A DNA stretch of 64,000 bases from Rhodoligotrophos defluvii (GTDB lineage Bacteria; Pseudomonadota; Alphaproteobacteria; Rhizobiales; Im1), in the NCBI RefSeq assembly GCF_005281615.1, contig NZ_SZZM01000002.1, forward strand, positions 310,001-374,000, written 5' to 3'. The notes under the pieces were generated by a model that was given only the letters and a program-made list of their open reading frames with translations, was not told the origin of the DNA and made no database searches. This document shows positions 8,362 through 28,753 of the stretch, in pieces. The position numbers were made by a program, and so were the translations under genes. The stretch's first letter is position 1, and the number at the start of each line of letters is the position of its first letter.

Positions 8362-8433
8362 GTCTCCGAGCTTATCCGAACGGATTCGCGCTTGACCCGC
8401 CGCAAGGTTAGCAGCAAGCTATATGCACAACAG

Positions 8434-8452
8434 TGTTGCGCATAGCGCAACA
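8434..8452. promoter_or_regulatory. Putative IclR operator, perfect dyad
   Basis: TGTTGCGCATAGCGCAACA has 8-base perfect arms around ATA. It sits 72 bases upstream of the IclR start and about 60 bases upstream of the UbiX-fusion start, the expected place for a regulator of both divergent units. Confidence 0.55.
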
Positions 8453-8510
8453 TGCACATTAGGAGATTTCGTCGTGGCAGGCAAGCTGGTCCTGGTTGCT
8501 ACGCCTGGCG

Positions 8511-11124: not shown

Positions 11125-11165
11125 AGATGCGGAGCAACTTCAACAATAAAACCGGAGGGACCGTC

Positions 11166-12155: not shown

Positions 12156-12217
12156 GCCATCGGGTGCCGTGCAAGCACGGCGCCCGATCATTCGAGCTCG
12201 CTACTGCTGAAAAAACC

Positions 12218-12976: not shown

Positions 12977-12978
12977 TC

Positions 12979-13960: not shown

Positions 13961-14812
13961 TCACTTGGCGAACGTCGCTTCGGCCCGCATCGCCAGCTCG
14001 CCTTCAGGCCCGCGCGCCCATACCTTGAGCTTGCCGTCCCTTTCCCCCGCCTTGGCCTCGAGACGGAAGGGCCGGTCCACGAAGAGCGGCGCCTGGCCGC
14101 GAAAGTCGAAGGTTTCGAGCCGTGCCCCGGAGCGGCAGCGGACCGCAAAGCCCTGCAGCAGTGTGGCAATCAGAGGCCCGTGCACCACGAGATCCGGATA
14201 GCCCTCCTCACCCGCCGCATAAGGCTTATCATAGTGGATGCGATGGCCGTTCGAGGTGAGCGCGGAATAGCGGAACAGGAGAACCGTGTCGGGCACCACC
14301 TCCTCCGACCACTCCGCCCCTTCCGGAGCGGGTGCGGGTGCCGGCTTCGGCGCATCGGGTGCGGGGGCCTCGCGGTAGACGATGTCCTGCTCCTCGCTGA
14401 TGCAGGGCTGCCCCTCGCAGGAAATCGTGTGGCGCACCGTCACGAAGACCAGATCGCCGGCGCGCCCCGATTTCGAGACCACATTGGCGATCTCGCTCTC
14501 CTTTACCGCTTCCGCGCCGACGGGAAGCGGCGCGTGATAGTTGAGGCGCCCGCCCGCCCACATCCGGCGCGGCAGCTTCACGTCGGGCAGGAAACCTCCG
14601 CGTTTGGGATGTCCATCATGCCCCAGCCGGCTTCGGGCGACGAACGGATTGAAGTAGAGCCAGTGCCAGCCCGGCGGCAGAGCATCACCCAGCGCGGGCG
14701 CCGGGCCAAGGTCCAGCGTCGCGGCCAGCGCCGCTGCCCGCTCGGGCAGGATCGTCCCGCTCAGCCGCTCGGTCCGGCCGATGGCTTCGGCATAGTCGTT
14801 ACCCGCCGTCAT
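13961..14812 (-). CDS. 3-methylfumaryl-CoA hydratase-like protein (Meh/FAS1-like dehydratase family)
   Basis: 283-residue double-hotdog hydratase resembling mesaconyl-C4-CoA (3-methylfumaryl-CoA) hydratase. Features seen are the early LPPGWHWLYFNPFVARSRLG, the substrate-side stretch LPRRMWAGGRL, a middle Pro/Ala linker (APAPDAPKPAPAPAPE) and, in the C-terminal hotdog, RYSALTSNGHRIHYDKPYA followed by HGPLIATLL, the catalytic-loop region of this family. Known family members hydrate branched unsaturated C5 dicarboxyl-CoA esters. It is the last gene of a four-gene minus-strand operon with two CoA-transferases and a dehydratase. The actual substrate here is not established. Confidence 0.85.
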   Translation of the reverse strand: MTAGNDYAEAIGRTERLSGTILPERAAALAATLDLGPAPALGDALPPGWHWLYFNPFVARSRLGHDGHPKRGGFLPDVKLPRRMWAGGRLNYHAPLPVGAEAVKESEIANVVSKSGRAGDLVFVTVRHTISCEGQPCISEEQDIVYREAPAPDAPKPAPAPAPEGAEWSEEVVPDTVLLFRYSALTSNGHRIHYDKPYAAGEEGYPDLVVHGPLIATLLQGFAVRCRSGARLETFDFRGQAPLFVDRPFRLEAKAGERDGKLKVWARGPEGELAMRAEATFAK

Positions 14813-14833
14813 GGCGTCGGCCTCCCGCTCCGT

Positions 14834-16027
14834 TCAGTAGATGACCCCGTCCTCGACGAGGCGCGCATAGTCGGCCCGTCCCATCCCCAGCAACTCGCCA
14901 TAGACATATTCCTCGTGCTCGCCCAATCCGGGCGTTCCGCGCTCGATGGTCGGATCGTCGCTGCGCGAGAACCGTGCCGGAAACCCCACGGCCAGCCTCT
15001 CGCGGCCACCGGTCTCCCACACGGGCACCACCGCGCGGCGCACCCGCAGGTGGGTGTCCAGCGCCACGTCCCGCATGCTCCATGAGACGTGCGCCGGCAC
15101 CCCCGCCTCCTGGAGCTGATGGGCAGCATCCTCCGCATCGACGCCGGCGCTCCACGCAGAGACGAGCGAATCAACCGCATCACGCGCCTTCACCCGCGCT
15201 TCCGCAGTGGCATAGCGTAAATCCCGTGCCAGCTCCGGCTGCCCCATCACCCGTGCCAGGGCAGCCCATTCTGCATCGTCGGTGACGGCGATGCTCAGCC
15301 AGCGATCCTTCATCCTTGTGGCATAAAGCCCGTGCGGGGCATATTTGGGATGCGCATTGCCCATGCGCTTCACCTGAACACCGGCAGAGCTCGCCGCCAG
15401 CGCCTCACCCACCAAGGATGAGGCGACCTCCCGCGCGGCGATGTCCACATGGCTGCCCTGCCCCGTCCGGCGCCGCTTGTGCAATGCGCCCACCGTCGCC
15501 AGTGCCGCGTTCATGCCGACCGAATGGTCCATCACATGGCGCATCTCGACGGGAGGGCCGTCCTCGTAGCCCGTGAGATGACCCAGCCCGCCCCAGGCGC
15601 CGAACAGGGGCGCATAGCCCGCGAAGTGGGAGTCCGGCCCGGTCTGGCCGGAGGAGGAAACCGAGACCATGACAATGTCCGGTTTCACCTCGCGCAAGAC
15701 CTCGTACCCCAGACCCAGGCGCTTCATCACGCCGGCCCGAAAGCTTTCCGCGGCGACATCGGAAATCGCAACAAGCCGCTTGGCAAGGGCGACCCCTTGC
15801 GGATGCTTGAGGTTGAGCCGCACCGACAGCTTGTTCGACGCCACCTGGTCGAATGTCGCCGGCCCGAACCGGCCATAGACGGCATGGGGCTTGCGAAAGA
15901 TGTCGGGCCGGTGCGCGCTCTCGATCTTGATGCACTCGGCGCCAAGCTGCGAGAGCATATGCGTACAGAACGGACCCGCGGCATGAACGGTGAAATCGGC
16001 TATGCGCACACCCTCCAGAGGCTTCAT
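14834..16027 (-). CDS. CaiB/BaiF-family CoA-transferase
   Basis: 397-residue family-III CoA-transferase, moving CoA between acyl-CoA and a free acid. The start PLEGVRIADFTVHAAGPF, the IKIESAHRPD strand and the GYAPLFGAWGGLGHLTGYEDG loop are typical. At the position aligned with the catalytic Asp of formyl-CoA transferase (VDIAARE) there is Glu (E200), a substitution seen in parts of the family; activity is therefore uncertain. The gene overlaps the second CoA-transferase gene upstream by ATGA (16024-16027), suggesting the two act together, possibly as a heteromer as in SmtAB-type enzymes. Confidence 0.9.
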   Translation of the reverse strand: MKPLEGVRIADFTVHAAGPFCTHMLSQLGAECIKIESAHRPDIFRKPHAVYGRFGPATFDQVASNKLSVRLNLKHPQGVALAKRLVAISDVAAESFRAGVMKRLGLGYEVLREVKPDIVMVSVSSSGQTGPDSHFAGYAPLFGAWGGLGHLTGYEDGPPVEMRHVMDHSVGMNAALATVGALHKRRRTGQGSHVDIAAREVASSLVGEALAASSAGVQVKRMGNAHPKYAPHGLYATRMKDRWLSIAVTDDAEWAALARVMGQPELARDLRYATAEARVKARDAVDSLVSAWSAGVDAEDAAHQLQEAGVPAHVSWSMRDVALDTHLRVRRAVVPVWETGGRERLAVGFPARFSRSDDPTIERGTPGLGEHEEYVYGELLGMGRADYARLVEDGVIY

Positions 16028-17226
16028 GCGCTGACTCTCCCGGCATCCGCGGCCGCCCTTCGCCCGCCTTTTTCCAGCAAAGCCTGGTCCGCCCCTGGCG
16101 CAGGTGCCCCGCCATCGAGCGGCAGGGGCTCCGTCCCGAAGCGGAAGGGAGCGGACTGGACCTTCACCTGCCCTACGCCCGGCACCTCGACATCGCGGAA
16201 GATGCCGCGCGCCGTCTCATGCGCACCGTTCAGGATATCGTCCGGCGTGTTGTAGCGTGCCATGGGTACGCCCAGCTCCTGTGCATGCGCCACCAGCTCC
16301 TGCACATCGTGCGCGCGCGCCCATGCCCTGATATGCTCGTTGATCTCCGCACCACGCCGGCTGCGTTCGGCCGCATCGTCCAGCGCCCCGTCCATCGCCC
16401 ATTCAGGGTTGCCCATCAGGCGGACGAGGCCCTGCCACTGCCGTTCTTCGAGCGTGAGAAGCTCCACATAGCCGTCACGGCACTCGATCACGCCGCCGAA
16501 GCGGAAGGAGCGCGTCAGCCGGTGCTCGAGCGATCCGTCCCCCAGCCGCTGCAGGGCGAAGGCACTCACGGCGAGATTGGCGTCCTGTATGGAAACGTCC
16601 ACGAACTGCCCCTCGCAGCCCTCGTCATTGAGCCCACCGGCCAAAAGGGCCGAAAGCCCGGAGAAAGCGGCAACCACGCCGCCCTGCATCTCCGCGAAAT
16701 GCCCGGCGATCTTGAGAGGCGGTCGGTCGGGAAACATGTCGGCCGACAGGCCATTGGGCAGCAGATAGCCTTCACCTCCGGCGTGGATCAGGTTGATCTC
16801 GCATCCCTTCCACCCGGCCTTCGGCCCCTCCGCCCCGAAGGGCAGCACCGAAACATACACCAGGTGCGGATGACGCGCCGCGACCGCCGCCTGGTCGAGA
16901 CCCAGGGCCGGCCGGCCAGCCAGCGGCGTGTCGTCGATCAGGATCTGTGCCCCGGCCACCAGCCGGTTGAAATCCGTACGCTCCGCCTCGTCGTGCAGGT
17001 CGCAGATCACGCTGCGCTTGCCCGCGGCGAGATAAATGAAAAGCGCACTTTGCCGGGATTCGCCTTCAAGAAAAGGCGGCTCGCGCCGCAACGGGCAGAG
17101 GGAGGGAGACTCAACCATGATGACCTCCGCCCCCATCGCCGCGAGAAGGCGCCCGGCATAGGCCGCAGCCACGCCCGAGGCGTGCTCCACGACCGTCACG
17201 CCCGCGAGGGGTTTGTCCTGCTGCAT
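16024..17226 (-). CDS. CaiB/BaiF-family CoA-transferase
   Basis: 400-residue family-III CoA-transferase. It opens with KPLAGVTVVEHASGVAAAYA and has the AEVIMVES strand. The catalytic Asp is present in VDVSIQDANLAV (about D215), matching the formyl-CoA transferase pattern. The protein lacks the usual long SxxxTGP region in its standard form (it reads SVLPFGAEGPKAGW), so substrate use may differ from its partner. It is translationally coupled to the downstream CoA-transferase and lies 23 bases after the dehydratase gene in the same operon. Confidence 0.9.
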   Translation of the reverse strand: MQQDKPLAGVTVVEHASGVAAAYAGRLLAAMGAEVIMVESPSLCPLRREPPFLEGESRQSALFIYLAAGKRSVICDLHDEAERTDFNRLVAGAQILIDDTPLAGRPALGLDQAAVAARHPHLVYVSVLPFGAEGPKAGWKGCEINLIHAGGEGYLLPNGLSADMFPDRPPLKIAGHFAEMQGGVVAAFSGLSALLAGGLNDEGCEGQFVDVSIQDANLAVSAFALQRLGDGSLEHRLTRSFRFGGVIECRDGYVELLTLEERQWQGLVRLMGNPEWAMDGALDDAAERSRRGAEINEHIRAWARAHDVQELVAHAQELGVPMARYNTPDDILNGAHETARGIFRDVEVPGVGQVKVQSAPFRFGTEPLPLDGGAPAPGADQALLEKGGRRAAADAGRVSA

Positions 17227-17249: not shown

Positions 17250-18470
17250 TCAGCGCACGACAGGCAGTTCGAGATCGAGCGCGGAGCCGTCGAAAGACAC
17301 CCTGGCGTTCGGGTCGCGGCTCGGCAAAATTACCGTCGCCAGACCCGGGGTCGTGATCTCGCCGCGCTGGTTCTCACCCCAGATCTCCAGATCGACGAGC
17401 GCGAAACCATCCTTCATGTATTTGCGCGATACCTTGCCCTTGCACCATGTCGTATCGCCCATGGTGTTGAAGCGCCGCATCTCGGTGCGCACCCGTTTGA
17501 GGAAAGCGGCGTCGCCCATCCAGTTGGTGACCAGCGAGCACATCCAGGATGACCGCTGCGGGCCGTAGTCATAGACGCCCGGAACACCGACCTCTTTGGC
17601 AGTCGATTCGCGATGATGTCCAATGCCCGTATATTCGATGCCGCCGCCCGCTTCGGGATTGCGGAAGAAGTGCCCGGGATGCTTCATTGCCGCCTGAAAG
17701 ACGACACCGTGCGTGTGGCCGCGGCCGCTGCCGACGAGGAAACCCATCGTGTCCATGAGCGAGAGCGGTCCACGTACGATCGGATCGAGCTGCTCGCCTT
17801 CCTTCACGTCCTCCCAATAGCGCACGTTGCTGCCGCGGATACGCTCGGGCTCGCGCATGATCGCGTCGTCGATGGCCTCGTATTCCTCGGGCGTGTATTC
17901 ATGCGTCTTGATGTCCTTGTATTTGCCGGCCTCGCGCGCGGCCCTGCGCTCGTGCCGGGTACAGGTGCCAAGCGCGCGCGCGACGATTTCGCCACGCTGG
18001 TTGCTGTAGGTCGCCTCCACATATTGCAGCACCAGGCGGCCGGAGAACTTGCTCTGCTTCTCCTCCACGCCCACCACGCGCTCGATGGCGCTGATGCGGT
18101 CACCCGGCCGTATGTGGCGAAACAGCTCCCAGTCGTTTCCCGCGTAGAAACCGTGCACGCCCGGAAGGCCCCAGCGCGTGCGCCCCACCCAGCCGAAGGC
18201 CATGGGAAACATCGGGTGCCCGATCTGACCGCCATAACGCGAATTGCGGCCGTATTCCTGCTCACGGTACAGCGGGTTCAGGTCGCCTATGCCGTTGCAC
18301 CAGTTGCGCAGAGTATCCGTGGTCGCATCCTGCAGATACGGGCCTTCTGGGCGCAATTGTAGGCCGATCATGGCCCGGGCGGCGGCGACAGCCTCGTCCG
18401 TGATCTTTCCCTCTGCCGGGGCGGTCCCGACATCCTGCTCGGCCTTCTGCTTGGTCGCCATCGTGGTCAC
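17250..18470 (-). CDS. FAS1-like/MaoC-type acyl dehydratase (double hotdog)
   Basis: 406-residue protein with two hotdog domains. The first (about 30-180) contains the MaoC/FAS1-like motif NWCNGIGDLNPLYRE and GHPMFPMAF; the second (about 230-400) starts with an EQLDPIVRGPLSLMDTMGF stretch and ends in GATP-like TTPGLATVILPSR. Such proteins hydrate or dehydrate acyl-CoA or acyl-acid double bonds. The gene heads the four-gene operon running to 13961; two AATGCATT boxes lie upstream at 18544 and 18660, predicted GntR sites. ATG codons at residues 1 and 4 are both possible starts. Substrate unknown. Confidence 0.85.
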   Translation of the reverse strand: MTTMATKQKAEQDVGTAPAEGKITDEAVAAARAMIGLQLRPEGPYLQDATTDTLRNWCNGIGDLNPLYREQEYGRNSRYGGQIGHPMFPMAFGWVGRTRWGLPGVHGFYAGNDWELFRHIRPGDRISAIERVVGVEEKQSKFSGRLVLQYVEATYSNQRGEIVARALGTCTRHERRAAREAGKYKDIKTHEYTPEEYEAIDDAIMREPERIRGSNVRYWEDVKEGEQLDPIVRGPLSLMDTMGFLVGSGRGHTHGVVFQAAMKHPGHFFRNPEAGGGIEYTGIGHHRESTAKEVGVPGVYDYGPQRSSWMCSLVTNWMGDAAFLKRVRTEMRRFNTMGDTTWCKGKVSRKYMKDGFALVDLEIWGENQRGEITTPGLATVILPSRDPNARVSFDGSALDLELPVVR

Positions 18471-18540
18471 GGCACGCGTCTCCCTTCGAATTTCCTGCCC
18501 AGCTTGCCCTCGGGAATGCCGAGGATCGGCTCTTCCGATA

Positions 18541-18554
18541 TTTAATGCATTTTA
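18541..18554. promoter_or_regulatory. Predicted GntR operator (AATGCATT box)
   Basis: TTTAATGCATTTTA contains the palindrome AATGCATT (18544-18551), 74 bases upstream of the dehydratase/CoA-transferase operon. Related boxes occur before every likely transcription unit of the cluster. Confidence 0.5.
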
Positions 18555-18657
18555 TTTTTCACAGTCAATCGGCATTCGGGAAGAGAATTGCGACGCCAGC
18601 AGGAAATTCGGAATTTTAGGAGTTAATTGCTTTCTTGCGCGTTCGACGCGCACAGAA

Positions 18658-18670
18658 ACAATGCATTATT
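18658..18670. promoter_or_regulatory. Predicted GntR operator (AATGCATT box), second copy
   Basis: ACAATGCATTATT with core AATGCATT at 18660-18667, in the 223-base gap between the isochorismatase-fold gene and the dehydratase operon. It lies 116 bases from the box at 18544, so both could serve the same promoter. Confidence 0.45.
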
Positions 18671-18693
18671 TGCGAAGCAGCGAACCGGGGCAG

Positions 18694-19272
18694 TCAGAAT
18701 TCCACCCCCGCCGCAGTCGTGACCTGCGCATAGCGGCGCAATCCGGCCAGAGCATAGTCATGCTCCTCCTTCGTTGCGCCGGCGCAGCAATCTTCCAGGA
18801 CGACACAGGCATAGTCGCGGTCATGCCCTTCCCGCACCGCCGCCGAGACGACGCCATTGGTCGACACCCCGGCCAGGATCAGCCGCCCTATGCCCTGCGC
18901 ACGTAGAAACGGTTCCAGCCTCGTGCCGTAAAAGGGGCTGACCCGGTGCTTGATAATGTCCAAATCGCCTTCCTGCGGAGCGAAATCGGCGAAGACCTCG
19001 GTTCCCCAGGCACCGAGGATGAAGAGCCCGTTCTCGCGTGCCTTGGAGAAAACCGGTGATCCGGGCGGGCATTCGGCATAATCGGGCGAAAACCCGACGC
19101 GCACATAGCCCACCCTTGTGCCGGCCTCGCGCGCCCGCCTGATTGCGAGCACCGTGTTTTCGTAGACCCCGCGCTCCCGGCAGAGCGGCACATATGTCTT
19201 GGCGCCCATCCCTTCGGGGTGGACCAGGTCGTTGATCATGTCCATGACAAGCAGAACGGTGTCGGAAGCCAT
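18694..19272 (-). CDS. Isochorismatase-fold hydrolase without the catalytic cysteine
   Basis: 192-residue alpha/beta protein of the isochorismatase/cysteine-hydrolase superfamily. The catalytic Asp (VMDMINDL, D11) and Lys (DIIKHRVSPF, K108) are present. In the nucleophile loop GVSTNGVV, however, Val141 occupies the place of Cys in the usual TNxC motif; the protein therefore resembles non-cysteine members such as true isochorismatases rather than amidohydrolases like carbamoylsarcosine amidase. ATG 19272 is chosen over the upstream ATG (19311) because GAGGAG precedes it at a good distance. It lies between the GntR gene and the dehydratase operon and probably performs a hydrolytic step in the same pathway; substrate unknown. 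Confidence 0.85.
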   Translation of the reverse strand: MASDTVLLVMDMINDLVHPEGMGAKTYVPLCRERGVYENTVLAIRRAREAGTRVGYVRVGFSPDYAECPPGSPVFSKARENGLFILGAWGTEVFADFAPQEGDLDIIKHRVSPFYGTRLEPFLRAQGIGRLILAGVSTNGVVSAAVREGHDRDYACVVLEDCCAGATKEEHDYALAGLRRYAQVTTAAGVEF

Positions 19273-19351
19273 ATTCCGTCTCCTCGTTTCTTCATTTCTG
19301 CAATCGGGCAAGCCCGCGGAAACGTCGGAACGAGGTCGGCGTTTCTTCGGC

Positions 19352-20023
19352 CTATCCGCTGTAGCTTGCCTTGAATTCTTCCCAGCCGGCGCGGATATGC
19401 GTGCGCAGGGCGGCGAGCATCGCGCCCTCGTCGCGTGCCAGGATCGCGCTCAGCATCTCCCGATGCTCGCGGGAGGCGCGCTCGATGCGATTGTCGAGCT
19501 TGTTGATCAGGTCGAACGGATATCGCGCCCAGAGGGTGCGCACGAACCGCAGCGTCTGCGGCAGATCTGCGGCAAGGTAGAGCAGCTCGTGGAAGCGATA
19601 GTTGATCTTGCGCACGGCATCGCGGTCTCCACGTGCAGCCGCATCGTCCAACTCGCCCTGCAGCGCGCGCAGACCCTCCATCTCGGCCGCCGTCAGGCGC
19701 TGCATCGCCTTCAATGCCAGTTTCGATTCGAGCGTCACGCGCAGGTCGACGATCTCTTCGGTCGCGTTCAGATCGAAGGGCGCCACGACCGCCCCTCGAT
19801 GCGAGGTGCCGAGGATGAAGCCTTCCGCCTCGAGAAGCTTTATCGCCTCGCGCACCGGCGTAATGCTCGTCCCGGTCATTTCCGCGATCTGTGCCTGCTT
19901 CAGCTTCGATCCACGCGGGAATTGACCGGAAATAATGCCTTCTCGAAGGTAATCGGCGATCCGCTCTTCCTTGGTCTGGTGCTTCAACCTGTTGGCCTTC
20001 CGTGCACTTTTCAGACGTCTCAC
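19352..20023 (-). CDS. GntR-family transcriptional regulator, FCD (FadR) subfamily
   Basis: 223-residue regulator with an N-terminal GntR winged helix (about 17-80; AEMTGTSITPVREAIKLLEAEG is split here as AEMTGTSITPVREA and IKLLEAEGF) and an all-helical FCD ligand domain (about 90-220). The FCD metal-type residues are suggested by the Asp in LRVTLESK context, the HELL segment (NYRFHELLY) and REHREML, RTHIRAG. Such proteins are repressors released by organic acids. A TGCATAATGCA dyad just upstream of its own start (20038-20048) and related boxes in front of the other cluster units suggest autoregulation and cluster-wide control. Confidence 0.93.
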   Translation of the reverse strand: MRRLKSARKANRLKHQTKEERIADYLREGIISGQFPRGSKLKQAQIAEMTGTSITPVREAIKLLEAEGFILGTSHRGAVVAPFDLNATEEIVDLRVTLESKLALKAMQRLTAAEMEGLRALQGELDDAAARGDRDAVRKINYRFHELLYLAADLPQTLRFVRTLWARYPFDLINKLDNRIERASREHREMLSAILARDEGAMLAALRTHIRAGWEEFKASYSG

Positions 20024-20037
20024 AGCATGTGGAGAAT

Positions 20038-20048
20038 TGCATAATGCA
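20038..20048. promoter_or_regulatory. Predicted GntR operator (TGCATAATGCA)
   Basis: Perfect odd-centred dyad TGCAT-A-ATGCA, 15 bases upstream of the GntR start and in the 46-base gap to the MBL-fold gene. The same 11-mer occurs at 27300-27310, upstream of the binding-protein gene. Confidence 0.55.
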
Positions 20049-20069
20049 CTCCTTCACAAGGGCATGATC

Positions 20070-20879
20070 TCACCTGCGGGTGGGTGAAACGTCAAGCCGG
20101 AAGATGTTTTGCGTGTTTTCCACGGGATAGATCTCGGCAATCCGCGGATCATGGGCGGGAAGCACGTGGTCGTCGCTGTCGGCAAGCGCCCGGATCCGGT
20201 CGTGGGCGGCGATCATGTCGGAGAGGTTGAAGGCCACCGCAAAGGGTATGCCCCGCTCGTATTCCTCATAGTAATGCAGCGCGTCCGAGGCGAGCACCAC
20301 CCACCCGCGGCCGGTGCGCACCCGCACGACCTCCTGCCCGGCGCAATGCCCGCCTACCCAATGCACACTCACGCCTTGGGCTATGTGCTCGTCCCGCCCG
20401 TGCAGCGAAAGCCGTCCGCCATGCAGGAGATGGACGAGGCGCGAAATCTCATCCGGCTCGTAGGCACGGCGGAACCAGGGCTTTTCCATCCAAGGCCCCG
20501 TGACATAGGCCATCTCCTCCGCCTGCATGTGGAAACGGGCGTGCGGAAAAGCGTCCAGATATCCCAGGTGATCGTAATGAGCATGCGTGAGGATGACCGT
20601 GTCCGCCGTCGCGGCGTCCACGCCCAGTGTGGCCAAAGCCTGCACCGGGCTCAGGAGATGGGTGTGGCCGTGCTTTGCCGCCTTCTGCGGATCCATGCCG
20701 GTATCGACGACAATGGCCCGTCCATCGCCGATCAGAACCCAGGAATAAAAGTCCAACACCTGGGGTGCTGCCGGATCGGCCTCAAGGATGAAGTTCTGGC
20801 CGCGCCTGCGCTCCTTGTTGGTCGCATGGCGGATGCCGTAGATGCGCCACGTCGCTCCCTTCTCTGCGGCCTCAGGCAT
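20070..20879 (-). CDS. Metallo-beta-lactamase-fold hydrolase, AHL-lactonase-like
   Basis: 269-residue MBL-fold protein with the metal motif THAHYDHLG (H99, H101, D103, H104), a second-site His in WVGGHCAGQ and Asp in ASDALHYY, and a C-terminal PAHDPRI. This layout is that of the N-acyl-homoserine-lactone lactonase family, whose members hydrolyse various lactones or esters. Inside a catabolic operon, 27 bases after livF, a role in opening a lactone or ester intermediate is more likely than quorum quenching; that is inference. Confidence 0.88.
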   Translation of the reverse strand: MPEAAEKGATWRIYGIRHATNKERRRGQNFILEADPAAPQVLDFYSWVLIGDGRAIVVDTGMDPQKAAKHGHTHLLSPVQALATLGVDAATADTVILTHAHYDHLGYLDAFPHARFHMQAEEMAYVTGPWMEKPWFRRAYEPDEISRLVHLLHGGRLSLHGRDEHIAQGVSVHWVGGHCAGQEVVRVRTGRGWVVLASDALHYYEEYERGIPFAVAFNLSDMIAAHDRIRALADSDDHVLPAHDPRIAEIYPVENTQNIFRLDVSPTRR

Positions 20880-20906
20880 GCTTTTGCCTCCCCTTCCCTT
20901 CTGCCT

Positions 20907-21635
20907 TCAGGCGCTTGCACCGAGATAGGCTTCGATCGCCTCCTGGCGGGCCGAATCCTCCTTCAGCTCCTCCCTGGTGCGCTGCCCCACCAGGCGCCCC
21001 GCGCGCAGGAAATGCACCTCGTCGCAAAGGCGCATGGTCATCGCCAAATTCTGCTCGACCAGCACGATAGCCAAGTCGCTCTCCTTGCGGATCGCGCTCA
21101 GCCGGTCGAACACCCGGCGCACCAGAAGCGGCGCCAGCCCGAGGGAGGGCTCGTCCAGGAGCAGCAGGCGCGGAGCCGCCATCAATCCCCGCCCGATCGC
21201 CAGCATCTGCTGCTCGCCGCCGCTCAACCGCCAGGCTGATCGCTCGGCCTTGTCGGCGATCTCCGGGAACAGGTCGAGCACCATGTCGATCCGCTGCCGC
21301 CGCCTGCTTCCGGAGAGATGATAGCCCCCCAGGACGAGGTTCTCGCGCACGGTCATGTTGCCGACGATCTCGCGCCCCTCCGGAACGTAGACGATGCCCT
21401 TGCGGACCCGCTCCCGGGCAGGCGCGGCCTCGACCGGCTCGCCTTCGAAGCGGATTTGGCCGCGCGCCGGAATAAGCCCCGCAATGGCCTTCATGATCGA
21501 CGTCTTTCCCGCCCCGTTCGCACCGAGCAGTGCCACGACCGAGCCCGGCCCGACGGAGAAGGAGACCTTCTCCACCGCCTGCGCCGTCGCGCCATAGAAG
21601 ACCGAGAGGTTGGATATGTTGAGCAGGTCAGTCAT
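20907..21635 (-). CDS. Branched-chain-amino-acid-type ABC transporter ATPase, LivF type
   Basis: 242-residue ATPase with Walker A LLGANGAGKTS, signature LSGGEQQML and Walker B LLLLDEPSLGLAP, the last two being the standard LivF forms. It overlaps the LivG-type gene by eight bases. HAAT-family importers like this carry many organic acids and amides besides amino acids; context suggests it feeds the acyl-CoA pathway of this cluster. Confidence 0.95.
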   Translation of the reverse strand: MTDLLNISNLSVFYGATAQAVEKVSFSVGPGSVVALLGANGAGKTSIMKAIAGLIPARGQIRFEGEPVEAAPARERVRKGIVYVPEGREIVGNMTVRENLVLGGYHLSGSRRRQRIDMVLDLFPEIADKAERSAWRLSGGEQQMLAIGRGLMAAPRLLLLDEPSLGLAPLLVRRVFDRLSAIRKESDLAIVLVEQNLAMTMRLCDEVHFLRAGRLVGQRTREELKEDSARQEAIEAYLGASA

Positions 21636-22404
21636 CGTCGCTGCCCAAATAGATCCGCACCACGTCGGGGTCGTTGCGGACCTCTTGCGGCGTGCCGCAG
21701 GCGACGAACTCGCCGAAATTCAGCACGTAGATCCGGTCGCATATGGACATGACGAGATCCATGTCGTGCTCCACGACCACCATGACGAGGCCGGGCGCGG
21801 CAAGGGCGCTGAGGCTAACCATCAGATCCCGCGTCTCGGCATTGTTGAGCCCTGCCGCGGGCTCGTCGAGCAGGAGGACCGAGGGTTTCCCGACAATGGC
21901 GCGGGCGATTTCAACCAGCCGCAGCATGCCGGGCGGCAGCTCGCCCGGCATCCTGTCGCCCACATCCGGCAAGCCCAGCTCGGCAAGAGCCGACCAAGCC
22001 GCCGACCGCATCTCCTCTCGCTCCGCCCGGCCTCGCGGCAGCGGCAGGAAAGCGTCCGGCCATCCGGAGTAGAAATTGCGCGCCACACCGATCATCACAT
22101 TTTCCAGGACCGTCAGATCGGGGCTCAGCGCCACATGCTGGAAGCTGCGCACGATGCCCATACTCGCGCGCGCCGCAGGCGGCAGGCCGTCGAGGCTGTG
22201 CCCGGAATAGGTGATGGTTCCGGATTGGGGCGAATAGGCGCCGGTCAGGCAATTAAATAGGCTCGTCTTCCCCGCGCCGTTGGGGCCGATCAGCCCGGTG
22301 ATTTCCCCCGCGCGGAATTGGACATCCAGCCCCTTCAGCACCTGGATGCCGCCGAATGAAAGGGAAATGCCTTTCCCTTCGAGCGCCGTCACTGCACCGT
22401 TCAT
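21628..22404 (-). CDS. Branched-chain-amino-acid-type ABC transporter ATPase, LivG type
   Basis: 258-residue ATPase with Walker A IGPNGAGKTSLFNC, the LivG-typical GIVRSFQHVALSP loop, a modified signature LPPGMLRLVEIARA in place of LSGGxQR, and Walker B VLLLDEPAAGLNN. LivG proteins often have this divergent signature. The C-terminus carries the LivG tail NFGEFVACGTPQEVRNDPDV. The start overlaps the LivM stop by ATGA. Confidence 0.95.
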   Translation of the reverse strand: MNGAVTALEGKGISLSFGGIQVLKGLDVQFRAGEITGLIGPNGAGKTSLFNCLTGAYSPQSGTITYSGHSLDGLPPAARASMGIVRSFQHVALSPDLTVLENVMIGVARNFYSGWPDAFLPLPRGRAEREEMRSAAWSALAELGLPDVGDRMPGELPPGMLRLVEIARAIVGKPSVLLLDEPAAGLNNAETRDLMVSLSALAAPGLVMVVVEHDMDLVMSICDRIYVLNFGEFVACGTPQEVRNDPDVVRIYLGSDDD

Positions 22405-23378
22405 CGCGCCGCCTCCTTCCGGTGGCCGGCGATCTCCCGAATGCGTGGCAGGTAATGGCCAATGAGGATCATGCCCAGAAGCGCCAGCCCATAGAGCACC
22501 GGTATCCAGGCACCCGAGGCCGACAGGAGCTGCGGCACCAGCGTCAGAAAGGCGCCACCCACCAGCGCACGAGGCAGTGTGAGGCCGTAGAAGCCGACCA
22601 CCGAACCCACCAGCAGGAATATCGAGGACCAGAGCGTGAAGCCGCTGGGCGACACGGTCGAGCCGGCAAAGCCCAGCACGGCGCCATAGAGCGCGGCGAT
22701 ACCGCCGCTGATGCCCATCACGCTCACCCGCGCCCAGACGCGCGATGTCCCGAAAGCGTCCGCAGCAGCCGGATGCGACTTGGCCAGAAGCAGCGCCAGC
22801 CCCTGCCGCGACTGGCGCAGGCGCGCCAGCGCATAGGTGACGGCGACAAGGGCAAGCAAGGCGATGTAGTAACGCTGGTAGGACATGCTCACGCCCGGCA
22901 GGACCGGTTGAGAGACATAGAGCCCCTCATACCCGCCGGTCAGGCTATCCAGATTGTTGATGAGCTCCGGCATCGCCAGCGCCAGCGCCATGGTCGAAAC
23001 GGCGAGATAGATGCCGGAAAGCCTTCGCGAGGGCCATGCGAAGAGCACCCCGGACGCAACGCCGAGCACCACCGCCAGAGGCAGACTCACCGGAAGGGAA
23101 AGCCCGTAACGCGTGTCCAGAATGGCGACGCAATAGGCTCCTATGGCGGCGAAGAAGGCGTGGCCGATGGAAACCTCCCCGCCATAGCGGACAAGCATGC
23201 TGACGGAGAGCACGCCGATCGCATTGGCAAAGCACACGCCCAGCGCAAACACCCACGAGCCGCCAACGAACCACGGCAGGCAGACCAGCACGGCGATGAC
23301 TGCGTAGCCGAGCATCTCCGCCGGCGCGATCCCCTGAACCGGGTTGCGTAGACCAATCGAAGCGGTGCGGTCAGACAC
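22401..23378 (-). CDS. Branched-chain-amino-acid-type ABC transporter permease, LivM type
   Basis: 325-residue permease with about eight to nine transmembrane segments. The GGEVSIGHAFFAAIGAY segment is the LivM hallmark, and the cytoplasmic coupling loop contains AKSHPAAADAFGTS and RVSVMGISGGIAALYGAV. It overlaps livH by eight bases and livG by ATGA. Confidence 0.95.
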   Translation of the reverse strand: MSDRTASIGLRNPVQGIAPAEMLGYAVIAVLVCLPWFVGGSWVFALGVCFANAIGVLSVSMLVRYGGEVSIGHAFFAAIGAYCVAILDTRYGLSLPVSLPLAVVLGVASGVLFAWPSRRLSGIYLAVSTMALALAMPELINNLDSLTGGYEGLYVSQPVLPGVSMSYQRYYIALLALVAVTYALARLRQSRQGLALLLAKSHPAAADAFGTSRVWARVSVMGISGGIAALYGAVLGFAGSTVSPSGFTLWSSIFLLVGSVVGFYGLTLPRALVGGAFLTLVPQLLSASGAWIPVLYGLALLGMILIGHYLPRIREIAGHRKEAAR

Positions 23379-24279
23379 GGCTGCCTCCCACGCGCTCGAG
23401 AATGCCGTTCGGGAAGATGTTCAGCGCCACCAGGATGATCCCCAGGAGAAACGTGCTGCTGAACTCGGGCGACACGTAGAAGGTGAACAGGTTCATCAGG
23501 ATGCCGATGAGGATGCCGCCGATGAGGCTGCCCGGGAGGCTGGCAAATCCGCCGATCACCGCGGCGGCGAAGGCTTGCAGCATGAACGCGGCCACCGTGG
23601 TCACGCTCAGGAAGGTAGTCGGCACGATCAGCAGCGCTCCAACGACGCCCAGAACCGCCGCCACGATCCAGGCGAAAAGATGCACCGAGCGCAGATTCAG
23701 CCCGCAAACCTCGGCGGCGAACGGGTTATCCGAGATGGCTCGAAAGGCGATGCCGAGCTTGGTGTGGTCGATGACGAAGAAGAGAGCGCCGATGGTGACG
23801 ACCGCGACGGCGAGCACCGTCAGGTCGTAGCCCGTGACCAGCAGCCCCAGTACCGACAGGCTGAAGCGCGGCACCGGCAGGTCGAGGCCGACGATGTCGG
23901 CGCCGAAGATCAGCAGCGTCGCCCCCTGTGCGATCAGGCCGACGCCCAAAGTCGCTATCGTCGCCGTGAGGTCGTTCTCGAAGACCAGGGGCGAGATGAT
24001 CGCGTAGGTCAGGAAGGCAATGGCGATCACGGCGACGACCGCCAGGAGCACGGCAGCGCCCCAGCTGAGCTCCAGCAGCACCCCGCTCGAAAAGCCGTAT
24101 ATGAGGAAGGCGGCAAAGCCCGCCACATTGCCGTGCGAGAAATTCACCACCCGCGAGCACTTGAAGATCATGACCAGCCCGAGCGCCCCAAGCGCATAGA
24201 GGCAGCCGGTGATCATTCCCGACCAGATCAGCGGGAAGAGATCGCGCGCCGCCGTGGCAAGAACATCCGGGAGGCTCAT
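23371..24279 (-). CDS. Branched-chain-amino-acid-type ABC transporter permease, LivH type
   Basis: 302-residue permease. SGMITGCLYALGALGLVMIF and the FSHGNVAGFAAF stretch are typical LivH N-terminal motifs; AFRAISDNPFAAEVCGLN is the coupling loop that contacts the ATPase. The start overlaps the dehydrogenase gene's stop by ATGA, placing the importer in the same operon as the SDR and HIBADH-like enzymes. Confidence 0.95.
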   Translation of the reverse strand: MSLPDVLATAARDLFPLIWSGMITGCLYALGALGLVMIFKCSRVVNFSHGNVAGFAAFLIYGFSSGVLLELSWGAAVLLAVVAVIAIAFLTYAIISPLVFENDLTATIATLGVGLIAQGATLLIFGADIVGLDLPVPRFSLSVLGLLVTGYDLTVLAVAVVTIGALFFVIDHTKLGIAFRAISDNPFAAEVCGLNLRSVHLFAWIVAAVLGVVGALLIVPTTFLSVTTVAAFMLQAFAAAVIGGFASLPGSLIGGILIGILMNLFTFYVSPEFSSTFLLGIILVALNIFPNGILERVGGSRV

Positions 24280-25184
24280 GAGGTCTCGGCTCCCCCGCCT
24301 TGTCCCATGACGCCATCCTCCACGAGCTTGATCACGCCCGGGAAGTAGCGCCCGCCCAGCCCGTGCTCGACCGCGGCGCTGTAATAGCGCCGTGCGGTCT
24401 CGGCTGCGGGCAGCGGAATGCCCGCCTCACCTGCCAGCTCGAAGACGTAGCCGATGTCCTTGAGCACATATTCGGGCGAGAAAGCCTTTTCCGGAAAGTT
24501 GCGCGGCAGCATGGCCTTGCGGCCGTGATTGCGCAGAACGAAACTGTCGCCCGATCCCTTGGACACCGCTTCGAGCAGCGTCTCCGGGGCAACGCCCGCC
24601 TTCTCGCCCAGAACCATCATCTCGGCCAAAGCCACTGTGTTGGCGAAAACGAGCATGTTGTTGACGAGCTTCAGCACCTGCCCCGCCCCTACCTCGCCGC
24701 CATGCGTGATGTCGGTGGCGATGTAGTCGAGCATCGGCCGGATACGCGCGTAAAGTGCGTCCGGCGCGCCCACCATGATCGCGAGCTCGCCGCTTTGGGC
24801 CGCCTCGCGCGTGCGCGCCACCGGCGCGTCGGCAAAGCCGATATCCTTCTGCGCAAGGATGCCGGCCATCTTGCGCGCCACGGCAACGGGCATGGTGGAG
24901 AGGTCGACCACCGCCGTCCCCGGCCGTGCATTCGTCAGAATCAGGCCGCAGACCATCTCGACCTGCGGTCCGCCGGGCAGCGACAGGAAGACGAGATCCG
25001 CCTCCGCCGCCAGCGCCTCGATGGAAGCGGCGGTCTCGGCTTTGGTATCGCGCAATGCCGCCAGCGCCTCACTCGAGAGGTCGAAGGCGATCACCCGCCC
25101 GGGGTGCTTCCTGGCCATGTTCCGGCACATGGGGCCGCCCATGACGCCGAGCCCGATGAATCCGATCGTCGCGTCCTTGCTCAT
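24276..25184 (-). CDS. NAD(P)-dependent beta-hydroxyacid dehydrogenase (HIBADH family)
   Basis: 302-residue enzyme of the 3-hydroxyisobutyrate dehydrogenase / tartronate-semialdehyde reductase family. The Rossmann motif GFIGLGVMGGPMCRNM starts at residue 8 and the catalytic lysine motif GAGQVLKLVNNML gives K172. The substrate motif normally read DAPVSGG is here DAPVARTREAA (119-129), a subfamily form that changes the substrate-side loop. ATG 25184 is preferred; the longer open frame to 25622 runs through the upstream SDR gene. It is five bases from the SDR gene and probably oxidises a hydroxy-acid intermediate. Confidence 0.9.
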   Translation of the reverse strand: MSKDATIGFIGLGVMGGPMCRNMARKHPGRVIAFDLSSEALAALRDTKAETAASIEALAAEADLVFLSLPGGPQVEMVCGLILTNARPGTAVVDLSTMPVAVARKMAGILAQKDIGFADAPVARTREAAQSGELAIMVGAPDALYARIRPMLDYIATDITHGGEVGAGQVLKLVNNMLVFANTVALAEMMVLGEKAGVAPETLLEAVSKGSGDSFVLRNHGRKAMLPRNFPEKAFSPEYVLKDIGYVFELAGEAGIPLPAAETARRYYSAAVEHGLGGRYFPGVIKLVEDGVMGQGGGAETS

Positions 25185-25189
25185 GCCGC

Positions 25190-25939
25190 TCAATCCATCA
25201 ACATGCCGCCGTTCACGTCGAGAACGGTTCCGGTGATCCAGTTGGACGCGGGTGAACAGAGAAAGAGGATCGCTTGGGCGATATCTTCCGGCTGCCCGAA
25301 GCGCCCGAGCGGCACGTTGCCATTGGGAGAAGGGGCGGCGCGCTGCGTCACCGTTTCCCACATGGGCGTTTCCACCGGCCCCGGCGCGATGACATTGGCA
25401 AAGACGCCGTGCGAGGCTCCCGCCTTGGCGACCCACTTCATCAGCCCGTGCACGGCCGACTTGGCAGCCACATAGGAGGGGCCGGACGCCACACCGCCGA
25501 TCTTCGCCGCGATGGAACCGAGCGCCACGATTTTGCCCCCGCCCTGCTCGGCCATCACCGGAAAGACGGCACGGACGGGATTGACGACGCCCATCAGGTT
25601 GACATCGAGGATCGTGCGCCACTCTTCATTGGTGGATTGGGTCAGCGAGCGGTGGGAAATCGTCCCGGCACAAAGCACCAGCGCATCGATGCGGCCGTGC
25701 TCCCTGCGGATACCGCCCAGAAGTGCATCGGTTTCCTCCACCGAGGTCACGTCATAGCGACGGTAGACCACCTTGCCGGCGCTGAAGGTCGCCTCTTCCA
25801 CGATGTCGGTGGCGATCACCGTTGCGCCTGCCTCCGCAAGCGCCAAAACCGTCGCCCTGCCGATGCCTCCCGCAGCACCCGTGACTATGGCGACCGATCC
25901 GTCGAGACGCGCCGGCGCGCTGACCGGAACAAGGCCCAT
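25190..25939 (-). CDS. Short-chain dehydrogenase/reductase (SDR)
   Basis: 249-residue classical SDR. The cofactor motif TGAAGGIG begins at residue 20, the NAG-like motif reads LCAGT, and the catalytic set is N114, S142, Y156 and K160 (YVAAK). PGPVETPMWE and the C-terminal ITGTVLDVNGG complete the family pattern. ATG 25939 follows a GGAGG site; the frame continues to 26050 without support. Asp45 after the second strand (ATDI) suggests NAD rather than NADP. Likely oxidises an alcohol step in the imported compound. Confidence 0.92.
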   Translation of the reverse strand: MGLVPVSAPARLDGSVAIVTGAAGGIGRATVLALAEAGATVIATDIVEEATFSAGKVVYRRYDVTSVEETDALLGGIRREHGRIDALVLCAGTISHRSLTQSTNEEWRTILDVNLMGVVNPVRAVFPVMAEQGGGKIVALGSIAAKIGGVASGPSYVAAKSAVHGLMKWVAKAGASHGVFANVIAPGPVETPMWETVTQRAAPSPNGNVPLGRFGQPEDIAQAILFLCSPASNWITGTVLDVNGGMLMD

Positions 25940-26021
25940 TCGATTTCCTCCCGCGTTTTTCCTCTTCGTTCGACAGCATGGGCGCCCGCCGCATTTCTCG
26001 CAGCGGGCACACCGGCACCCC

Positions 26022-27233
26022 TCATTCGGCCATGGGCGCGTCGAAAACAACAGCGGGATAGGGCCTGAATTCCTGCACCAGCTCGAATTCCCCGTTCTTC
26101 ACCTGGATGATACCTTCCTGGCGCGTGCCTCGATGATCACCCGGCTTGAAGGAGACACCCCGCGCTCCGCCCACCGAAACATTGTCCAGCGTCTCAAGCG
26201 CCGCGATGAGATTCTCGCGCGTCAATTCCTTGCCGCTTTTTAGTAGCGCTTCGAAGCCTTTGTGGAAAATCCCGGCATTGCTCCAGCCGTTCAGGCCGAA
26301 CACGCCGATTGGATCCTCCGGGTAGTATTTCTTGATCGACTCGCGATAGGCAACGATCTCCGGATCGTCGCTCGAAACCGGTAGGAGCCAGGAGGAAAAA
26401 TAAACCCCTTCCAGCAGATCGCCTGCAAGCTTTAGGGTCGACGGATCAGCCGTGAAGAACGGCGCGAACCATTTCACGTCCAGCCCCTGCAAGTCCGCCG
26501 CTTTCAGGGCGGCCGCAAGATTCGCGTTCGAGCCAAAGAGGATCACGGCCTCAGCACCGGCGTTGGCGACACGGCGGATATGCGGGCTGAAGCTCGTCGT
26601 CTTGACGTCGAACGGCACGGAGGCCGCGGGCTCGAGCCCGAGCTTCTTCATATAGGCATCGAAACCACGCTTGGCCGACTTGCCGAGCTCGTCATTTTCC
26701 CAGAGAAGGGCGATCTTCTTCAAGCCCAGCGTGTTGACCGCATAGTCCAGGTTGGAAGCCGCCGACCAGCCGTAATCCGGCAAAAGCGGAAAGACATTCG
26801 GCTCCACGAAAAAAGCGCTCGCTCCGCCGATGGGGCTGACCACGGGGAGGCCGACCTCACGCGCATAAGGCAGCACAGCCACATTGGTGGCGGTCCCCAC
26901 GGATGCGGACAGCGCGAAAATGCCGTCATCCTCGACGAGCTGACGTGTCACCGCCACGCTGCGTGCGGGATCATAGCCGTCATCCTTGGTCACATACTTG
27001 ACCGTCCAGCCGTCGATCCCGCCCTGCTCGTTGAGATTGCGGTAATACGCATCGGCGGCATGAGTGAGGATCGCGTAGAAGGGCACAGGGCCGGTTACCG
27101 GCGTAAAGGCGCCGATCGTTACCACTTTCTTCTCTTCATCGATCCCGACATCCGCGGCCCCGGCGGCCCCGGCCACACCCAGAGCAGCCGCCACAAGCGC
27201 AGCCCTGATCCCATATCCGACACGCGAAAGCAT
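26022..27233 (-). CDS. ABC transporter substrate-binding protein, Leu/Ile/Val-binding type
   Basis: 403-residue type-1 periplasmic binding protein. A signal peptide runs to about AGA|ADVG, then comes VVTIGAFTPVTGPVPFYA and NEQGGIDGWTVKYVTKDDGYDP, the normal opening of the amide/branched-chain family (LivK/UrtA-like). ATG 27233 has GGAGGAG at the right distance; ATG 27248 is less likely. It is the first gene of the long minus-strand operon and lies 64 bases from the double operator at 27298. A Trp/Tyr-rich binding region (WFAPFFTAD, YFSSWLLPV) is visible. Ligand unknown. Confidence 0.93.
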   Translation of the reverse strand: MLSRVGYGIRAALVAAALGVAGAAGAADVGIDEEKKVVTIGAFTPVTGPVPFYAILTHAADAYYRNLNEQGGIDGWTVKYVTKDDGYDPARSVAVTRQLVEDDGIFALSASVGTATNVAVLPYAREVGLPVVSPIGGASAFFVEPNVFPLLPDYGWSAASNLDYAVNTLGLKKIALLWENDELGKSAKRGFDAYMKKLGLEPAASVPFDVKTTSFSPHIRRVANAGAEAVILFGSNANLAAALKAADLQGLDVKWFAPFFTADPSTLKLAGDLLEGVYFSSWLLPVSSDDPEIVAYRESIKKYYPEDPIGVFGLNGWSNAGIFHKGFEALLKSGKELTRENLIAALETLDNVSVGGARGVSFKPGDHRGTRQEGIIQVKNGEFELVQEFRPYPAVVFDAPMAE

Positions 27234-27297
27234 CTGCACTCCTCCCATCCGTCACATTGTTCTTGAATCGAGGATATGTGCGTATTTTAAGCCCGTC

Positions 27298-27312
27298 AAT
27301 GCATAATGCATT
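27298..27312. promoter_or_regulatory. Predicted GntR operator (AATGCATAATGCATT)
   Basis: Perfect 15-base odd-centred palindrome AATGCAT-A-ATGCATT, containing the same TGCATAATGCA 11-mer as the site before the GntR gene. It lies in the divergent region between the binding-protein gene (start 27233) and the CoA-transferase gene (start 27521). Confidence 0.6.
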
Positions 27313-27417
27313 AAATATCTACTCTCGAATCGCCAATGCCTCATCACCCAGGAATGATCCCCAAAGTCGCCCTCTTGAAAGCTGCTCAGTTAGGCGATAA
27401 TGAGGTTCATGGGACAA

Positions 27418-27431
27418 AATAATGCATTATT
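27418..27431. promoter_or_regulatory. Predicted GntR operator (AATAATGCATTATT)
   Basis: Perfect 14-base palindrome AATAATGCATTATT, 90 bases upstream of the chosen start of the plus-strand CoA-transferase. It is the best even-centred version of the recurring AATGCATT box. Confidence 0.6.
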
Positions 27432-27520: not shown

Positions 27521-28753
27521 ATGAACCACGGCGTATTGTCCAACAGGACGGTGATCGAGCTGGGCAGCATGATTGCCGCGCCCTACGCCACACACATCCT
27601 GAACCAGCTCGGGGCGGACGTCATCAAGATCGAACCTCCGGCGGGCGAAACCACGCGCAAGCTCGTCCGGGGCGGCCCGAGCGGCAGCTATCTCGCCTTC
27701 AACCGCGGCAAGAAGAGCCTTTGCCTCGACCTGCAGACGGATGCGGGCCAGGAGATATTCCGCAAGCTGGTCGAGCGGGCCGACATCATCGTTCAAAACC
27801 TCTCCCCCTCTGCCGCCCGCAAGATGGGCCTCACTTACGAGGCCTGCAGGGCCCTCAATCGCGATATCGTTTTCTGCCATATCAAGGGCTACGGTCCCGG
27901 CCCACTGCAGGACGAGGTCGCCTCGAACCCCATTGCTGAAGCGGCGACCGGAGTAATGTACGCCAATCGTGTCGACGGTCGGCCATCCCGGCTCGGCCCT
28001 TCCTATCATGACCAATTCGCCGGCTGTTACGCGGTCATTGCAATCCTGTCCGCCCTCCTCGACAACGGCGGCGGCAAATGCCGTAACATCGAGTTCGGCC
28101 TGTACGAAACGGGCTTGCACATCGCTGCCCGCGATATCTTGGGCGTGCAGCTTAAATCACAGCTTCTCGGACGTCCGGAGCAGGAGCCGTCGGCCGAGTT
28201 CAGCATTCCCGGCTATGGCGCCTATGAAACGCAGGATGGCCGCTGGATCTATCTGGTCATGCTGAGCGACGAACACTGGCGCCGCTTCTGCCAGGCCACC
28301 AGCCTTCAGCCGGACCCGGAGCTTGCCAGCCTGCGCCAGAGACGCGCCGCGCGACCGCAGGTGGAAGAATTGGTCCGCACGGCCGTGCACAGCTACAAAT
28401 ACGATGCACTTGCGCAGAAATTGTCGACCCACGGCATCGGCTTCAGCGAAGTTCTCTCGCTGGACAGGGTGCTCGACGCCCCACAGGCACAGGTTCCTGG
28501 GAAGTGTTCCGACTTCCATTTCAGCGGATACAGGTTCCGCTCACCCGATCTGCCGTTCCCAGCTCACATCAAGGATCACGGCCTCGACGCGCCTCCACCC
28601 CTCCTGGGCGAACATACAAACGAGCTGCTGGCCGAGCTCGGGTACAGTGCAGACCAGATCGAGGCGCTGTCCGCCTCAAACATAGCTCTTCAGGCTGAAA
28701 AGAATACCGAACTGTGGGCCAAACCCCGCAGGACCGCAGCATCCGCAGGCTGA
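27521..28753 (+). CDS. CaiB/BaiF-family CoA-transferase
   Basis: 410-residue family-III CoA-transferase, the only plus-strand member of the cluster. NRTVIELGSMIAAPYATHIL, ADVIKIEPP and LDLQTDAGQEIFRKLV are typical; AEAATGVMYANRVDGRPSR resembles the 'qa.sG....tG.pdgpP.r' loop. The residue aligned with the catalytic Asp is Glu196 (IEFGLYETGL). ATG 27521 follows GGAGG at 27511-27515; ATG 27509 and an open frame back to 27422 are less likely because the latter starts inside the palindromic operator. It is divergent from the binding-protein operon and shares the operator region. Confidence 0.9.
   Translation: MNHGVLSNRTVIELGSMIAAPYATHILNQLGADVIKIEPPAGETTRKLVRGGPSGSYLAFNRGKKSLCLDLQTDAGQEIFRKLVERADIIVQNLSPSAARKMGLTYEACRALNRDIVFCHIKGYGPGPLQDEVASNPIAEAATGVMYANRVDGRPSRLGPSYHDQFAGCYAVIAILSALLDNGGGKCRNIEFGLYETGLHIAARDILGVQLKSQLLGRPEQEPSAEFSIPGYGAYETQDGRWIYLVMLSDEHWRRFCQATSLQPDPELASLRQRRAARPQVEELVRTAVHSYKYDALAQKLSTHGIGFSEVLSLDRVLDAPQAQVPGKCSDFHFSGYRFRSPDLPFPAHIKDHGLDAPPPLLGEHTNELLAELGYSADQIEALSASNIALQAEKNTELWAKPRRTAASAG

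Follow-up and report, generated by a model that had tools for sequence, protein, structure and literature searches.

Introduction

The closest described counterparts of the system analyzed here are found among the FCD-type GntR regulators, in particular Atu1419, a VanR-type FCD GntR repressor of Agrobacterium fabrum. According to its description (PMC7797058), Atu1419 recognizes the operator ATGTATACAT, and binding is abolished by a G-to-A exchange at position 3. Its sites overlap a -10 element or fall between -35 and -10, its zinc ligands are Asn137, His141, His192 and His214, and the protein is a tetramer which forms a DNA loop between sites located 190 bases apart, another pair of sites being 109 bases apart. 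For the FadR subfamily, a second source (PMC4494728) gives the motif TKGT-N2/3-ACMA and mentions additional half-sites at a distance of 7-12 bases for GntR regulators. Here we analyzed a stretch of 64 kb (hereafter the window) of the Rhodoligotrophos defluvii genome (5.49 Mb in total, 20 contigs), which encodes an FCD-type GntR regulator within a cluster of transporter and catabolic genes and harbors five palindromic boxes in intergenic gaps of this cluster. These boxes are conserved in orthologous loci and most likely represent the operators of the resident regulator, i.e. a local FCD-GntR regulon that is an ordinary kind of switch with an unusual operator code.

Results

Conservation of the boxes in orthologous loci

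A sequence-only reading of the window had placed five sites (18544, 18660, 20038, 27298 and 27418) in the gaps before the dehydratase operon, the GntR gene, the binding-protein operon and the plus-strand coenzyme A (CoA)-transferase gene, and had predicted them to form an operator set for the FCD-type GntR; footprinting next to orthologous gntR genes had been proposed as a check. A scan of genome contigs with the GntR protein yielded 26 orthologous loci with regulators of 53-83% identity, which together with the window form a set of 27 loci. These loci share kinship, so that counts across them are not independent; two further loci, L118 and L119, have the same box sequences as L029 and L044 and do not count as independent. 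The box motif was learnt from the gaps of the orthologous loci and the scores per gap were obtained by leaving one locus out, while the sites of the window were scored with a model from other genomes only, excluding the window.

The best site in the gap upstream of the dehydratase gene reached at least 16 bits in all 27 loci (minimum 24.6 bits), and the same was true for the divergent gap between the binding-protein and CoA-transferase genes in all 24 testable loci (minimum 22.1 bits), three of the 27 loci being without this gap. The gap before gntR held a site of at least 16 bits in 7/27 and of at least 10 bits in 18/27 loci, and TGCANNNTGCA was present in this gap in 14/27 loci. When the loci were scored in a two-fold held-out manner, 99 sites with at least 16 bits were located in 16.6 kb of gaps compared to 15 in 510 kb elsewhere, which corresponds to a density in the gaps about 200 times that of the remaining locus sequence. 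Eleven of the 15 sites outside the gaps precede a gene resembling acetyl-CoA hydrolases/transferases (named by eye) in five loci, and this gene is likely to be an extra regulon member in some relatives; a search of the R. defluvii genome at 1e-20 gave no match to it, which shows little since the search was run without a positive control. Of the remaining four sites, two precede the CoA-transferase gene in the rearranged locus L053, and the other two, in L035 close to the edge of the locus and in L041, are without such an assignment.

A plasmid search returned nine records, and in all five of those examined for boxes we found sites with at least 14 bits. On the plasmids of Qingshengfaniella and Agrobacterium pusense, the cluster has its usual form. 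In Cupriavidus pinatubonensis and C. necator, the GntR proteins of which are 52-53% identical to that of the window, boxes are located before the dehydratase gene and in the gap between the binding-protein and CoA-transferase genes, and C. pinatubonensis has one more site (17.6 bits), which lies inside a gene. The footprint thus supports the predicted operator set, as does the genome-wide concentration of the strong form of the motif in R. defluvii (see below). In Paraburkholderia caribensis (L112:12777), a single box with a score of 36.6 bits is located some 300 bases in front of two GntR genes arranged in tandem, both with the recognition helix SITPVRE (44-45% identity); a dehydratase gene was not found in the 28.6 kb stretch around this box.

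The boxes of the window and their specificity within the genome

All five predicted sites are present in the window beyond chance expectation. Four sites reached at least 18 bits, whereas 200 first-order Markov sequences contained 0.035 such sites on average and never more than 2; at least 13 bits were reached by five sites, compared to 0.345 on average and at most 3 in these sequences. The boxes occupy three gaps, i.e. those between the dehydratase and isochorismatase-like genes, between the metallo-hydrolase gene and gntR, and between the binding-protein and CoA-transferase genes. The sites at 18544 and 18660 share the first of these, upstream of the dehydratase gene and downstream of the isochorismatase-like gene, and the site at 20038 lies in a gap of 46 bases within a run of genes on the same strand, possibly one operon. 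A box at the GntR gene, as predicted, does exist, but as a candidate autoregulatory site it is the weakest element of the set. The perfect 11-mer that two sites had been said to share, TGCATAATGCA, has two exact copies in the window, at 20038 and 27300, and 27418-27431 is indeed a perfect palindrome of 14 bases (AATAATGCATTATT), which contains the only exact ATAATGCATTAT of the genome. For the divergent CoA-transferase gene, a start at 27521, behind GGAGG (by eye), appears better than the mechanically assigned ATG at 27422 inside box 5. The coordinates of all features are given in Table 1.

Table 1 Boxes, predicted promoters and genes of the cluster in the window, and additional boxes in related loci.
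Feature	Position	Strand	Description	Score or basis
Box 1	18541..18552		core AATGCATT at 18544-18551; in the -35/-10 spacer of the predicted dehydratase promoter	31.7 bits
Box 2	18658..18669		core at 18660-18667; second box of the dehydratase gap, 116 bases from box 1	21.2 bits
Box 3	20038..20048		TGCATAATGCA; just upstream of gntR, candidate autoregulatory site	13.5 bits
Box 4	27298..27312		AATGCATAATGCATT; two overlapping units, upstream edge of the predicted binding-protein promoter	29.6 bits
Box 5	27418..27431		AATAATGCATTATT; upstream of the plus-strand CoA-transferase gene, 116 bases from box 4	27.0 bits
Predicted dehydratase promoter	18540..18568	-	TTGACT (18568-18563), 17 bases, TTAAAT (18545-18540); box 1 overlaps the -10	
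Predicted binding-protein promoter	27271..27299	-	TTGACG-17-TATCCT; -35 touches box 4	
FCD-type GntR regulator	19352..20023	-	recognition helix SITPVRE; putative metal site N141/H145/H187/H209	Pfam GntR and FCD
MaoC/FAS1-type dehydratase	17250..18461	-	first gene of the left operon	Pfam, model
Rest of the left operon	13961..17226	-	two class III CoA-transferases and a MaoC-like protein	
Isochorismatase-like (cysteine) hydrolase	18694..19272	-		Pfam
Right operon	20070..27248	-	ABC substrate-binding protein, SDR, HIBADH-like dehydrogenase, four ABC genes, metallo-hydrolase	
Class III CoA-transferase, divergent	27521..28753	+	start codon by eye	Pfam
Boxes before the acetyl-CoA hydrolase/transferase-like gene of relatives	L033:1083/1178, L034:1129/1215, L036:1110/1204, L037:1121-1222, L042:20006/20080		two or three each	

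The enrichment of the boxes depends on the form that is counted. The bare 8-mer AATGCATT occurs only four times in the window (18544, 18660, 27305 and 27421); shuffled windows contained 0.75 copies on average and reached four in 2/100 cases, so that the 8-mer alone is modest evidence, and with 29 copies in the genome it is not concentrated at the cluster. The strong form, however, is concentrated there: 23 of the 25 other genomic copies of AATGCATT score below 10 bits with the model made without the window, and ATAATGCATTAT with at most one mismatch is found at three places in the genome, all at the cluster, even though it is common when two mismatches are allowed (29 places in all). Likewise, AATGCATAATGCATT with up to two mismatches occurs at two places, both at the cluster, box 4 being the best match to this 15-mer in the genome, and among five genomic TGCATNATGCA sites only the two at the cluster have an A/T centre. 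A wider regulon in the R. defluvii genome was considered and rejected, as only the sites C1:429788 and C9:46753 score well and each of them is single.

Anatomy of the predicted operators and placement relative to promoters

Symmetric dyad models of even and odd type and of several widths were compared on 122 sites. An even dyad, ATAATGCATTAT, rather than the 11-mer TGCATAATGCA, fits best overall; this is clear for the dehydratase boxes and nearly tied elsewhere. With the widest models, the even and odd forms gave 27.4 versus 20.2 bits per site in the dehydratase gaps, 25.0 versus 23.4 in the divergent gaps and 18.6 versus 16.5 in the gntR gaps, and since the even model is ahead in all three gap classes, the odd 11-mer TGCATNATGCA was rejected as the primary dyad. 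A 12-base even and a 15-base odd model are nearly tied in the divergent (21.7 versus 21.3) and gntR gaps (15.76 versus 15.73 bits per site), where the shortest odd model is even slightly ahead of the shortest even one. Box 4 consists of two overlapping units offset by 7 bases, and 34 of the 37 copies of TGCANNNTGCA in the 27 loci lie within gaps; we tentatively read TGCANNNTGCA as two overlapping units.

The boxes resemble the FadR-subfamily motifs, as far as these are described in PMC4494728, in being short AT-rich palindromes with double sites and with half-sites at 7-12 bases, but they differ in the core: AAT-GC-ATT is conserved, and no GT/AC pairs flank a centre of two or three bases as in GT-Nx-AC operators. 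The paired boxes are spaced by 116 bases in both gaps of the window and by 41-203 bases in other loci, with two further spacings of 222 and 227 bases in L032. Phase concentration at 10.5 bases gave p values of 0.012 for the 18 unique spacings of dehydratase gaps and of 0.18 for the 14 of divergent gaps, and the best-fitting period is not 10.5; helical phasing was not accepted as proof of looping, the phase statistics being suggestive only.

In all 27 dehydratase gaps TTGAC is located 8-14 bases before a box, so that a spacer of 17 bases places the end of the box at or within the -10 element, although L031 and L051 have only a poor hexamer at this distance. The predicted dehydratase promoter of the window was not reported by a consensus promoter scanner. 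In the divergent gaps, a box stands directly before TTGAC in 15/24 cases. No promoter was identified in the window for the plus-strand CoA-transferase gene or for gntR. As judged by its position, the placement of the boxes relative to the predicted promoter elements resembles a repressor layout. The boxes mark promoters and not, as had been suggested earlier, the limits of the pathway, because the left end of the cluster is without a box and boxes of relatives are also located before the acetyl-CoA hydrolase/transferase-like gene. In the gntR gap of L029, L030, L042, L045 and L048, a hexamer similar to TATAGT or TATAAG follows the weak box at a near-constant distance (by eye), which suggests a separate promoter of gntR in this clade.

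The GntR regulator and its relatives

The regulator matches PF00392 (50.2 bits) and PF07729 (73 bits), both above the Pfam cut-offs, and is thus an FCD-type GntR. N141, H145, H187 and H209, which are aligned to the metal-site residues of TM0439 and would provide the Asp/Asn and three His of such a site, and also Ile54 are each invariant in 28/28 sequences. In a Foldseek search with the AlphaFold model (mean pLDDT, the predicted local distance difference test, of 85), McbR/YncC of E. coli (4p9f) ranked first and Atu1419 second, the top 25 matches all being 16-27% identical; McbR, however, shares only 23% identity and controls other genes. Atu1419, at about 26% identity, corresponds to the window GntR in fold and in the residues of the Asn-His3 metal site. 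In both systems the palindrome is even and similar in length, and the sites are paired and either overlap the -10 or are placed between the -35 and -10 elements. They differ at the DNA contact: in an alignment over S-x-T-x-x-R, the base-reading Arg45 of Atu1419 is replaced by Ile54, and the inner ten bases of the predicted operator, TAATGCATTA, carry an A at position 3 where ATGTATACAT has its essential G. Hence, regulator and operator leave the family pattern at the same contact.

Discussion

Proposed mechanism and alternative explanations

From these results we conclude that the boxes are very likely operators of the resident FCD-type GntR, which most likely acts as a repressor. A GntR dimer would bind the palindrome ATAATGCATTAT and, when bound, would keep RNA polymerase off by covering the spacer between -35 and -10 at the dehydratase promoter and, at the binding-protein promoter, the upstream edge of the -35 element. 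The paired boxes, 116 bases apart, may raise occupancy, possibly by looping through a tetramer in analogy to Atu1419. An imported acid or an intermediate of the pathway, probably a carboxylate at the FCD metal site, would release GntR, so that the transporter and catabolic operons would open together.

A repressor is favored because the dehydratase boxes lie between or over promoter elements in 27/27 loci, as is the case for the repressor Atu1419. That GntR binds the boxes but acts mainly as an activator, or as activator and repressor, is rather unlikely for the same reason, although box 4 directly adjoins a -35 element on its upstream side, from where activation would be possible, and FCD activators exist, e.g. 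CitO of Enterococcus faecalis. We regard it as quite improbable that the boxes belong to another transcription factor encoded elsewhere while the resident GntR reads a different site. This explanation could account for the weakest box being the one at gntR itself and for the absence from AATGCATT of the GT..AC core that is usual for GntR sites (PMC4494728), but the boxes accompany this GntR lineage in two proteobacterial classes. Boxes were found in 10/11 loci with a SITPVRE-GntR, a set which counts the window and also two loci that repeat earlier ones, compared to none of ten loci of paralogous FCD-GntR proteins with a residue 54 other than Ile (sites of at least 12 bits). Among 18 loci of paralogous dehydratases (34-41% identity), none had a site of at least 16 bits, the highest score being 15.1. 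The latter also argues against the boxes being merely conserved AT-rich promoter elements without a dedicated regulator, which we consider very improbable: TTGAC is tied to every dehydratase box and the flanks are AT-rich, but the GC centre and the dyad are conserved even in second boxes away from the promoter. Finally, a chance origin from an 8-mer that is common in AT-rich gaps, as the genomic count and the shuffled windows taken by themselves might imply, is practically negligible in view of the footprint in 27 loci, the Markov controls and the missing match of 23/25 other genomic copies to the extended motif.

Several observations weigh against the proposed mechanism. The box at gntR has low scores, which drop below 0 in L033, L039 and L053; the arrangement of box and TTGAC is not shown by 9/24 divergent gaps; and two single AATGCATT sites outside the cluster have high scores (23.3 and 18.4 bits). 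L120 encodes a GntR of 46% identity which keeps SITPVRE, yet has no cluster nearby and no box in 3.6 kb. Two orthologues of the dehydratase are without a box, namely those of G087 (82% identity, 467 bases upstream examined) and G053 (64%). G087, however, has its own GntR of 53% identity on another contig with boxes, beside isochorismatase-like and binding-protein genes, whereas in G053, where the enzyme occurs without this GntR lineage, the nearest GntR is only 34% identical. Together with the paralogue loci, this pattern of presence and absence indicates that the boxes track the lineage of the regulator more than the enzyme.

The predicted regulon, comprising operator, promoters and regulator, is testable, and it is conserved among the loci from Alphaproteobacteria that were analyzed and also occurs in Cupriavidus. 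Release of GntR from the boxes could serve as a reporter to find the substrate of the cluster. Moreover, the paired change of Arg45 to Ile in the regulator and of G to A in the operator represents a natural experiment on how GntR specificity changes.

Gene content and possible function of the cluster

The cluster comprises 15 genes in the order CoA-transferase, divergent binding protein, SDR, HIBADH-like dehydrogenase, four ABC genes, metallo-hydrolase, gntR and isochorismatase-like hydrolase, followed by the dehydratase, two CoA-transferases and the MaoC-like protein. This order is complete in 22 of the 26 orthologous loci; the CoA-transferase gene has moved in L046, L047 and L050 start inside the cluster, and L053 is rearranged. 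The ABC genes, which encode a branched-chain-type importer, were named from the plasmid annotation of orthologues, and the CoA-transferase at 14834-16027 was named by relation and plasmid annotation, not by Pfam. A gene for a CoA-ester lyase follows the MaoC-like gene in 22/26 loci and in both complete plasmid clusters; it is missing from the window (around 13961), and its homologues in the genome, located on other contigs, are only 37% and 35% identical.

This gene content suggests a route of acid import, activation by CoA transfer, hydration and cleavage, by analogy to itaconate and mesaconate routes, which use the same types of CoA-transferase, MaoC-like hydratase and CoA-ester lyase as most orthologous clusters. 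The cluster of the window differs from these routes in having three CoA-transferases, two hydratases, two hydrolases, two dehydrogenases and no lyase. The MaoC-like folds similar to the model of the dehydratase, at 8-16% identity, include itaconyl- and mesaconyl-CoA hydratases, and the dehydratase sequence has no match in the PDB at 0.001. Deriving the substrate from such solved relatives was tried and abandoned; for the binding protein, the matches were confined to generic binding proteins of the branched-chain type. Keyword searches of the literature for the gene set did not yield a paper on the cluster. Searches with the box sequence returned papers which, by title and start of the abstract, were unrelated, and one paper on Acinetobacter and alkanes containing both AATGCATT and GntR. 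As a tentative idea, which may well prove wrong, a VanR-like GntR lineage would have changed its DNA code, from Arg to Ile in the protein and from a GT-N2-AC core to AAT-GC-ATT in the operator, and would control, through occlusion and through loops between paired operators, an uncharacterized pathway that is common to two proteobacterial classes and serves an imported acid, possibly one similar to itaconate or mesaconate.

The two single high-scoring sites outside the cluster both lie in gaps, C1:429788 (L055; 23.3 bits) beside a LysR-like gene and C9:46753 (L076; 18.4 bits) between dnaG-like and yqeY-like genes (labels by eye). Within the window, the neighboring block at 7552-13731, which is without boxes, appears to encode an IclR-type regulator, UbiX- and UbiD-like decarboxylases and an NMT1-like ABC importer (by eye).

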